DNA of 64,000 nucleotides. Source: an uncultured Candidatus Binatia bacterium. Its GTDB lineage: Bacteria > Desulfobacterota > Binatia > UBA9968 > JAJDTQ01. Below are positions 30,962-50,797 of the stretch, in pieces. Position numbers and translations under genes: made by a program. The notes beneath the pieces were generated by a model that was not told where the DNA came from, searched no databases, and worked only from the letters and a program-made list of their open reading frames with translations. The DNA lies in contig OY282432.1 of the NCBI GenBank assembly GCA_958295985.1, positions 1,426,001-1,490,000 on the forward strand, written 5' to 3'. Numbering within the stretch: the stretch's first letter is position 1; every line of letters begins with the position of its first letter.

Positions 30962-31468
30962 GTGGAGCATCGCGCCTACATCGGGGTGGGCTCGAACCAG
31001 GGGCGGAAGGAGGAAAACTGCCGCCGTGCGGTCCGGGAGATCGGGCGGATGCCCCAAACCCGTCTGCGGGAGGTCTCGACCTGGTTCGTGACCGAGCCGT
31101 GGGGCGCGGCGAGCACGGAATGGTACGTCAACGGAGTCGTGGCGGTTGACACGGGCCTGCAACCGGCGACCTTGCTGCAACGCTGTCAGGCCCTCGAAAA
31201 GGAGATGGGCCGGCGGCCCGGCCCCCGGCGCTGGGCAGATCGGGTCATTGATCTGGACATCCTCTTTTTCAATGATATGGTTTTGGAAGGACCCGAGTTG
31301 ACCATCCCGCACCCGGAGCTTCACCGTCGGCGATTCGTGCTGGTTCCGCTGTGCGAGATCGCGCCGGACCTGAAGCACGCGCGCCTGGGCAGTGACATCC
31401 GGGAGCTCCTGGCTCGGGTGGAGGATAACCTGCGGGTCCATGAGGTAGCCGCACCGCAAGGTGCGTGA
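30962..31468 (+). CDS. folK: 2-amino-4-hydroxy-6-hydroxymethyldihydropteridine pyrophosphokinase
   Basis: 168-residue HPPK of folate synthesis. It shows YIGVGSNQG, ENCRRAVREI, YVNGVVAVDT and the signature GPRRWADRVIDLDILFF, followed by LTIPHPELHRRRFVLVPL. The likely start is GTG 30962, with no clear Shine-Dalgarno, probably coupled to dapL. It belongs with folC and pabA to folate biosynthesis. Confidence 0.95.
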   Translation: MEHRAYIGVGSNQGRKEENCRRAVREIGRMPQTRLREVSTWFVTEPWGAASTEWYVNGVVAVDTGLQPATLLQRCQALEKEMGRRPGPRRWADRVIDLDILFFNDMVLEGPELTIPHPELHRRRFVLVPLCEIAPDLKHARLGSDIRELLARVEDNLRVHEVAAPQGA

Positions 31469-48845: not shown

Positions 48846-49325
48846 TCAGGACGTGGAACGGCTTCGCTCCAGGATTCGTTTGATTTCGTGGCCGGCCCGC
48901 TCGGCGTCCGCCGCGGGCACGAGAGCCTCGAAGGCGGAAAAAAGTCCGCGCTCTTCACTTCGGATGTGTTGTTCCAGGAGGTCTCCGAAGTCGAAGAGAA
49001 ACTTCCGCAACCCTCCGTCGCCGGCCGGTCGCGCCAGCCGTCTGCGAAACTCCTGGTGCTCGCTTTCGAGCCTGGCGACGAGCGCCCGGCTCCCCTCGTA
49101 TACCGCCATGAGCGGGAAGAGGACGGTCTCCTCGGCCTCGAAGTGGGGCTTCAGGCTCTCGTTGAAGAACCTGGACACTTCCGACGCGCATGCTTCCATG
49201 GATGCGGCATCACCGGGGTTGAGTTGCCCGAGGGCATGCTTGCGGCAACGCAAAGCCAGCGCCAATCCGTGGTGATGATCGTGTGAGAGCGGTATCAGGC
49301 TCGCATGTCGCTTGGCCATGACCAT
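48846..49325 (-). CDS. Hemerythrin HHE-domain protein
   Basis: 159 residues forming a four-helix bundle with metal ligands in LSHDHHHGLALA, KPHFEAEETVLFP, LESEHQEFRRRL and EQHIRSEERGLFS. These di-iron proteins bind oxygen or protect against NO and oxidants. Start ATG 49325 is chosen (49319 possible). It is divergent from the OsmC gene and followed by the HMA-like gene, together forming a stress cluster. Confidence 0.88.
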   Translation of the reverse strand: MVMAKRHASLIPLSHDHHHGLALALRCRKHALGQLNPGDAASMEACASEVSRFFNESLKPHFEAEETVLFPLMAVYEGSRALVARLESEHQEFRRRLARPAGDGGLRKFLFDFGDLLEQHIRSEERGLFSAFEALVPAADAERAGHEIKRILERSRSTS

Positions 49326-49414
49326 GCTTTTGTGAAGCTCCGTTAATTGACGCTGCCCGGTCCTTTGGTTAACCTTTGGTAGCACAAGGCTTTGAAGGTT
49401 GAAACGGGGGATCT

Positions 49415-49900
49415 ATGGCAGAAGACGTAACCATCAAGCGGGAAGTCGTCATCGAGGCTGACACGGAGGCGTTGGAGCGGCAGAAGAAGCGCGGCGAGGC
49501 TCGGGGGTTCACCGTTCTGTGCGACGAGGCGGAGCGGACCGGCGGCGACAACACCGCGCCGCCTCCGCTGGCGTACTTCGGGCTTTCCCTGGGGTTCTGA
49601 CTGCTCACCCAGATTTCCCGGTACGGGGAAATGATGAAGGTGAGGATCACGAAGGCCCGGGTCCACGTAACCGGGCGTTTCAAGAGCCAGGGATCGGTGC
49701 TGCGGGAGACCGTGGAGGCCCAGGGAGTCGGGTTCGAGACCAGGCTCGACGTGGAGTCCGACGAGCCCGCGGCGCGGGTTGCCGCGGTGGTCCGCAACGC
49801 CGAGAACGGGTGCTACGTCATGCAGACGATTCTCAAGCCGACCCCGGTGGAGCGCCGGTTCACCCTCAACGGGTCGGCCTTCGACCCGCATGAGAAGTAG
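49415..49900 (+). CDS. osmC: OsmC/Ohr-family peroxiredoxin-like protein with in-frame UGA (probable selenocysteine)
   Basis: The reading frame runs 49415-49900 with a single interruption, TGA at 49598-49600 (codon 62). Both sides are clearly OsmC: upstream ARGFTVLCDEAERTGGDNTAP then PPLAYFGLSLGF, downstream LLTQISRYGEMMKVRITKA and the second conserved cysteine in NAENGCYVMQTILKP (Cys133). The UGA falls exactly where the family has its peroxidatic cysteine (G-C-L-L/T). A hairpin suited to a bacterial SECIS follows at 49613-49632. Read-through gives 161 residues, the normal OsmC length. OsmC proteins reduce organic hydroperoxides. A Sec/Cys pair would be a redox-active variant. The cnoX-like gene follows. 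A nonsense mutation is the alternative but is less likely given the precise position. Confidence 0.85.
49613..49632 (+). promoter_or_regulatory. Bacterial SECIS-like hairpin after the OsmC UGA
   Basis: ATTTCCC (49613-49619) and GGGAAAT (49626-49632) form a perfect 7-bp stem around the loop GGTACG. The stem starts 12 bases after UGA and the loop G-G-U sits 20-22 bases after it, matching the bacterial SECIS rule of a G/GU-bearing apical loop within about 16-37 bases. The E. coli fdhF loop AGGUCU carries the same GGU. Confidence 0.75.
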
Positions 49901-49945: not shown

Positions 49946-50797
49946 ATGGAATCGTTGGTTTTCGACGTCGGTGACGCGGAGTTCGAGGCGGAGGTGGTGG
50001 AGCGTTCCGGGGAAACCCCGGTAGCGGTGGATTTCTGGGCGCCGTGGTGCGGCCCGTGCCGGGTCCTGGGTCCTGTGCTGGAGCGGGTAGTGGAGGAATA
50101 TCAGGGCAAACTTCTTCTCGCCAAGGTCAACGTGGACGAGAACCCCGAGCTCGCGTCCAGCTTCGGCATACAGGGGATCCCCGCGGTCAAGGTCTTCAAG
50201 GACGGCGCCATCGCAACGGAGTTCACCGGCGCGCTTCCCGAAGCCGGCGTCCGCGAGGTCCTCGGCTCGGTGGTGCCCTCGCGCCAGGATGAGCTGGTCA
50301 TTGAGGCGGCTCGAACGTCGTCCCGGGGCGACACCGAAGAGGCGCTTGGGATCTACCGGCAGGTGCTGGAAGAGTCGCCGCACCATGCCGGCGCGCTTCT
50401 CGGTCTGGGGCGCGCGCTGCTCGATACGGACGCGGAGCGCGGCTTGGCGCTGCTGGAGAGGGTGCCCCTTGGCTCGCCCGAGCGCAAGGAGGCCGACCGG
50501 CTGATGGCCCGGCGGATGCTGAGTCAGGGAGACGGCGCGGACCTCGACTCCTTGAGGCAGCAGTTGTCCTCGGCACCGGACAGCATTGAGGTACGTTTTC
50601 GGCTGGCTCAGGCCCTGGCCGCGGAAGAGAGCTACGACGCCGCCCTCGAAGAGTTCCTGGCGGTGCTGAGAAAGGACCGCGCTTTCGAGGATGACGGCGC
50701 TCGCAAGGCGATGGTTCAGATCTTCGAGGTCCTGGGACCGGGGAGTGAGCTGGCCGACCGGTATCGGTCGGAGATGGCCAAGGTGCTGTTCAGCTAA
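49946..50797 (+). CDS. Thioredoxin-fold co-chaperone with TPR tail (CnoX/YbbN-like)
   Basis: 283 residues: thioredoxin domain with FWAPWCGPCRVL (CGPC, Cys35/Cys38) and IQGIPAVKVFKDG, then TPR-like repeats from about 125 (GDTEEALGIYRQVLEESP, GALLGLGRALLD, FRLAQALAAEESYDAALEEF). CnoX proteins protect substrates from oxidation and pass them to GroEL or DnaK. Unlike E. coli CnoX, the CxxC is intact, so it may be an active reductase. It follows osmC by 45 bases and could supply electrons to it. Confidence 0.9.
   Translation: MESLVFDVGDAEFEAEVVERSGETPVAVDFWAPWCGPCRVLGPVLERVVEEYQGKLLLAKVNVDENPELASSFGIQGIPAVKVFKDGAIATEFTGALPEAGVREVLGSVVPSRQDELVIEAARTSSRGDTEEALGIYRQVLEESPHHAGALLGLGRALLDTDAERGLALLERVPLGSPERKEADRLMARRMLSQGDGADLDSLRQQLSSAPDSIEVRFRLAQALAAEESYDAALEEFLAVLRKDRAFEDDGARKAMVQIFEVLGPGSELADRYRSEMAKVLFS

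Follow-up and report, generated by a model that had tools for sequence, protein, structure and literature searches.

A conserved in-frame UGA in an OsmC-like gene of a Binatia bacterium very probably encodes selenocysteine

Does the TGA codon that divides an OsmC-like gene in this Binatia bacterium end the protein, or is it read as selenocysteine (Sec)? The gene lies in the window, by which we mean the whole 64 kb stretch of DNA that was analysed, on contig C1 of its genome. Its frame opens with ATG at 49415, runs for 61 codons to a TGA at codon 62, continues for 99 more codons and closes with TAG at 49898-49900, and this TGA, at 49598-49600, is the sole interruption of the frame between 49415 and 49900. 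Read through, the frame yields a product of 161 residues in which Cys133 is present. The product is matched by the Pfam OsmC model PF02566 over residues 44-146 (48.7 bits, cut-off 27.5) and by the NCBIfam model NF041052 over residues 13-153 (176.9 bits, cut-off 95), and it carries a UxxT motif as U62-L-L-T65. An earlier note on this DNA had described two halves of an OsmC protein in a single frame, split by TGA and with Cys133 intact, and its coordinates and residue numbers are correct. The features of the gene are as follows.

49415..49900, + strand: predicted OsmC-like selenoprotein gene, 161 residues with Sec62 (PF02566, NF041052)
49598..49600, + strand: in-frame UGA, predicted Sec codon for residue 62 in the ULLT motif; this position of the TGA is shared by all 59 examined TGA-bearing rows
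49811..49813, + strand: Cys133 codon, the other invariant position (all 39 aligned rows)

Every TGA of the window was scanned on both strands, the requirement on each side being a stop-free run of 30 or more codons and a set score for codon usage. By this codon-usage scan, coding-like sequence flanks a TGA on both sides at two sites only, the OsmC gene and 31466, and the OsmC TGA is therefore more than a chance occurrence. The second site (31466-31468) was considered as a further candidate and rejected: an HPPK (PF01288) gene stops there, the stretch behind it is without a Pfam match, and the TGA looks like an ordinary gene end. Behind that TGA lies a short frame with a hydrophobic segment.

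The read-through protein was searched against 97 genomes, its own included, and matched 88 rows in 41 of them, of which 75 were available at the DNA level and the other 13 were weak or short. Sixty rows were marked as TGA-bearing and 59 of these were examined, the one left out being in G089 (E 1.5e-5). All 59, from genomes of the same order, have TGA at the equivalent of OsmC codon 62, and five further motif-bearing rows have TGC or TGT at that codon, which brings the motif-typed rows to 64. Among 39 aligned proteins, all of them matched by NF041052 (E <= 0.001), column 62 is Sec in 27 and Cys in 12 according to their DNA, with Cys standing at the Sec position in the more distant paralogues. 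No column of this alignment other than 62 and 133 is invariant, and neither the 64 motif-typed rows nor the 39 aligned proteins have a residue other than Sec or Cys at column 62.

The TGA-type gene of the main group is found in 30 genomes of the order. At two loci, L061 (G024:C205) and L064 (G026:C581), OsmC-like genes from different groups lie in tandem, and both members of each pair have a UGA and a hairpin of their own; in the first gene of L064 the 5′ part is disturbed. In a tree of the 39 proteins, for which residue 62 was entered as C in every row, six Cys rows (L086, L087, L088, L089, L090 and L095) form a group that is nested, with joint support of 98/98, in a group with three Sec rows. 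The Sec/Cys label requires at least two changes on this tree, in which the branches are long and the direction of change is thus not fixed. This Cys group among Sec paralogues appears to represent a natural Sec/Cys switch. A search of plasmids found four records with distant OsmC proteins, which are 28-32% identical.

Measured against the window gene in 30 relatives, the median dN/dS is 0.18 upstream of the TGA (26 relatives with usable dS) and 0.21 downstream of it (30 relatives). The downstream half is thus constrained about like the upstream half, and the sequence behind the TGA is most likely translated.

Directly behind the UGA lies a hairpin, for which two registers are relevant.

49613..49632, + strand: putative bacterial SECIS-type hairpin with a 7 bp stem and a 6 nt loop starting with GG, 19 nt after the UGA
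49614-49620 paired with 49624-49630, + strand: hairpin register shared by the paralogues, with a 3 nt loop

A published model of bacterial SECIS elements (PMC13188914) specifies a loop of 3-9 nt, a stem of 4-16 bp, a G in the first two loop positions, a distance of 16-37 nt from the UGA and a minimum free energy of -7.5 kcal/mol or lower. The window element, with 7 bp, the loop GGUACG, 19 nt and -8.4 kcal/mol, falls within these ranges, and the 48 nt fold behind the UGA reaches -19.1 kcal/mol (z -3.19), a value as low as which occurs in 2 of 200 shuffles. Among 3300 ordinary codons in the window, 430 also have a hairpin within these constraints, as strong as this one at 256, and therefore the hairpin alone proves little. 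Under a strict contiguous-stem rule with -7.5 kcal/mol, 42 of the 59 Sec rows pass and 17 fail, as compared to two of the five Cys-group rows tested (L086, L087, L088, L089 and L090), with hairpin spacings of 21 and 36 nt in the two that pass.

The case for a SECIS element at this putative site is carried by conservation. Codons +6 to +9 read TCC CGG TAC GGG in every main-group sequence that retains the respective residue (33 to 35 of 35), so that their synonymous homozygosity is 1.00 across the 35 sequences, as compared to an expectation of 0.21-0.54 from the genes' own codon usage. The flanking codons +5 and +10 reach 0.91 and 0.89. Most other codons vary, with exceptions that include +16 (1.00), +29 (0.81) and -20 (0.80). 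Pairing was also assessed over the 59 Sec rows, 51 of them distinct. The register 16-22/29-35, preferred by the single-sequence fold, was set aside because it pairs just 65.0% of cells across the paralogues, a poor fit. In the shared register, 17-23/27-33, 95.5% of cells are paired (74.8 in shuffles), two-sided changes are found in 56 cells (20.4 in shuffles) and the covariation score is 0.459 (0.151 in shuffles), and on each of these three measures none of 500 shuffles is as high, for a register that was picked after it had been seen as the best slide and for rows that are related. Slid registers reach at most 59.9% paired and a covariation of 0.205. Two of the five pair measures, those said to be least misled by relatedness, give no excess: pairs showing a two-sided change number 4 against 3.5 in shuffles (237 of 500 as high), and further pair types 8 against 7.3 (196 of 500 as high).

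The genome of the window spans 4 contigs totalling 4.29 Mb, with an estimated completeness of 99.95% and contamination of 6.58%, and it encodes selA, selB, selD and tRNA-Sec (selC). The tRNA-Sec scores 73.1 bits against a gathering score of 47 and has the anticodon TCA, selA scores 580 bits (cut-off 267.9), selB 376 bits (cut-off 242.25) and selD 376.7 bits (cut-off 125). All are located on C1, the contig of the window, with selA, selB and selD in a row at C1:762822-767101. Among 14 named control genomes, selB is over the cut-off in two, selA in one, selD in two and tRNA-Sec in five. The selD gene (C1:766175-767101; L018:1501-2427), directly behind selB, has an in-frame TGA of its own near the N-terminus (AAGUAAK) and is probably a second selenoprotein gene of this genome.

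Across the order the picture is less tidy. A selB gene (E <= 1e-60) is found in 24 of the 30 genomes with a main-group TGA gene. Four that lack it have other parts of the system, namely selA and tRNA-Sec in G009 and G031, tRNA-Sec in G020 and selA in G024, and in G029, which has no selB match, selD is cut by a contig end. In G010, a genome of 240 contigs with a listed completeness of 100%, no selA, selB, selD or tRNA-Sec was over the cut-off, the tRNA-Sec search having scored 150 of 473 candidates at E <= 1e-9. We take this to be an assembly or binning gap; real loss is possible. The same genome keeps a UGA-bearing OsmC gene with a hairpin (L040). A selB gene is also present in the order's five genomes that gave no TGA-type OsmC match (G015, G017, G018, G025 and G034). 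Therefore, selB does not track the gene, and their co-occurrence adds nothing to the argument.

Taken as a selenoprotein gene, the locus has to be set against three other accounts of its TGA. A pseudogene, with the OsmC gene decayed and truly cut in two by a stop at the TGA, would agree with the frame as divided under translation table 11 and with the look of some relatives' copies, five of which (L041, L050, L063, L064 and L065, mostly in fragmented genomes) are broken by a further TAG or TAA or by a disrupted frame. Yet decay would hardly leave a TGA at one and the same codon in every examined row, a median dN/dS of about 0.2 behind it, four codons without synonymous change in 35 sequences and a Cys133 kept in all 39 proteins, and we consider this account very improbable. 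One wrong base would suffice to turn a true TGC or TGT into the TGA by a sequencing or assembly error, but the same codon recurs in many separate assemblies, the 59 rows coming from the order's genomes and nine of them belonging to named MAG records whose prefixes differ (Candidatus Binatia, 'Deltaproteobacteria'); the relatives that share the TGA refute such an error. That UGA has been reassigned in this genome to an amino acid other than Sec has in its favour only that the frame is open once the TGA is read through. Against it stand the complete Sec system of the genome, the relatives with Cys at residue 62, and the fact that just two TGA codons in 64 kb have coding-like flanks, one of them a gene end, and its probability is negligible.

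The gene is therefore almost certainly an OsmC-like (NF041052, UxxT) selenoprotein gene in which UGA62 is read as Sec, as far as sequence comparison can tell. The earlier note had proposed Sec at residue 62, and the Sec machinery, the conserved TGA, the frozen SECIS codons and purifying selection support it. It had also named what should be looked for, and these points were borne out: selA, selB, selC and selD are all present above curated cut-offs on the window's contig; Cys stands in for UGA in homologues (5 of 64 motif rows, 12 of 39 proteins), with no third residue; and, given the conserved TGA, the dN/dS of about 0.2 on either side and the frozen codons, the gene does not look decayed. 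Annotation under translation table 11 would split or truncate a whole, conserved selenoprotein gene of this kind. The parts for Sec insertion are present and conserved, and from them we infer the insertion itself: when the ribosome meets the UGA at codon 62, SelB with Sec-tRNA-Sec would bind the in-gene hairpin 19 nt downstream and insert selenocysteine instead of a stop.

What the protein does is a separate matter. A structure model built from 10 sequences is weak (mean pLDDT 66.8) and agrees with an OsmC fold; its helices 51-73 and 119-134 hold residues 62 and 133, which would place Sec62 in the first and Cys133 in the second central helix of that fold, in a model too weak for a Sec62-Cys133 distance. 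Among solved structures the best matches are OsmC/Ohr proteins by sequence as well as by fold; by fold, 3cje (E 3.7e-6) is followed by 1vla, 3eer and 1lql, at TM-scores of about 0.5. An OsmC-like protein from Jannaschia sp. CCS1, 3cje is also the only PDB sequence matched by the single protein at E <= 0.001 (48.1 bits), and its two Cys residues align with residues 62 and 133, so that 3cje has Cys where the window protein would have Sec.

The hydroperoxide reductases of the Ohr/OsmC type, such as Xylella Ohr and E. coli OsmC, have the fold and the two Cys positions in common with the window protein, in which Sec would occupy the place of the peroxidatic Cys of Ohr. The catalytic triad of Xylella Ohr consists of Arg19, Glu51 and Cys61 (PMC5962072), and whereas Ohr thus has its catalytic Glu ten residues before Cys61, the place ten residues before Sec62 holds L in 33, M in 4 and V in 2 of the 39 proteins, an ungapped equivalence being assumed. 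In these sequences the missing Glu speaks against an Ohr-type peroxidase mechanism; such a peroxidase is not a safe default, and 'redox-active' fits residue 62 better than 'peroxidatic'. The earlier note had put Sec at the 'peroxidatic' cysteine, and of this the Sec at 62 stands, with TGA in 59 of 59 rows and the sel genes, while the word peroxidatic is not supported, with L, M or V in place of the Ohr Glu.

We accordingly see an even chance that the selenoprotein is no peroxidase at all, and is instead a thiol oxidoreductase of the YhfA/COG1765 type or a sulfur- or selenium-handling protein, which is compatible with Sec at residue 62 and would alter the substrate only. In addition to the Ohr triad Glu position, which lacks Glu in 39 of 39 proteins, it is favoured by a 2022 review that, where it treats OsmC-like selenoproteins, puts them under COG1765 (YhfA) (PMC9312934), and by the NCBIfam models for Ohr and OsmC peroxiredoxins, none of which matches the window protein at E <= 1. 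Indeed, its only NCBIfam matches at that threshold are NF041052 and TIGR03549 (11.7 bits, cut-off 900), and a few of the 39 relatives weakly match the Ohr/OsmC peroxiredoxin models. Both catalytic Cys positions are nevertheless kept, and 3cje, the nearest match among solved structures, bears the title of an OsmC-like hydroperoxide resistance protein, which is a title and not an assay result.

Two genes flank the OsmC-like gene.

49946..50797, + strand: thioredoxin (WCGPC) and TPR protein (PF00085, PF14561, PF14559)
48846..49385, - strand: hemerythrin-like gene, divergent, upstream of the OsmC gene (PF01814)

The thioredoxin-TPR protein is one that we take to resemble the CnoX/YbbN co-chaperones. 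Of 36 main-group loci, 24 have its gene downstream on the same strand, 19 to 1057 nt behind the OsmC gene. The other 12 comprise five with less than 500 nt of DNA left to inspect and seven in which 1.2-2.0 kb gave no thioredoxin-TPR match. The hemerythrin-like neighbour is present in 10 of the 36 loci, namely that of G009 and those of the genus, whose nine genomes all have it. The OsmC and thioredoxin-TPR genes are probably co-transcribed, and the thioredoxin-TPR protein may be a partner of the OsmC selenoprotein, which itself is most likely a thiol/selenol oxidoreductase. In such an enzyme Sec62 would react with an oxidised substrate, either a peroxide or a disulfide, a selenylsulfide would form between Sec62 and Cys133, the probable redox partner that the earlier note had likewise proposed, and a dithiol donor, perhaps the adjoining thioredoxin, would re-reduce Sec62. 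A broader proposal can be offered only tentatively, and it may well not hold in full: that the Binatia order harbours several old groups of OsmC-like Sec paralogues, the main group being a two-gene unit in which a dedicated thioredoxin-chaperone reduces or presents a selenol oxidoreductase whose mechanism, with the catalytic Glu missing, is not that of Ohr. If this is true, the Sec/Cys switch within one group makes the chemical reason for selenium directly testable.

OsmC-like selenoproteins as such are not new. Three UxxT sequences with predicted SECIS elements were described from Sargasso Sea data in 2005 (PMC1088965) and five sequences from GOS data in 2008 (PMC2398784), in keeping with the earlier note's mention of such proteins in marine metagenomes. 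Reviews of 2022 (PMC9312934) and 2026 (PMC13188914) include them, and the curated NCBIfam model NF041052, OsmC_like_Se, is named 'OsmC-related (seleno)protein'. The window gene is thus a very well supported addition to a selenoprotein family that has been in print since 2005. A search of openly accessible literature under the name Binatota found no earlier report of selenoproteins or selenocysteine there. The spread in Binatia, the Sec paralogue groups, the Sec/Cys switch within one group and the thioredoxin neighbour, which we did not find in that literature, are modest additions.

The known family (PMC1088965, NF041052) and the window gene share the same domain, a U where the first Cys would stand, a UxxT motif, here ULLT, and a SECIS hairpin directly downstream. 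The family was described from the marine metagenome and the host of the window belongs with the Binatia, and there is no difference in kind. What goes beyond the family description is the thioredoxin-TPR neighbour and the presence of several Sec paralogous groups in a single order. An orphan family of first three and then five marine sequences is now placed in one order of the Binatia, in 30 of its genomes, and the thioredoxin neighbour, present at most of these loci, provides a first handle on its function.
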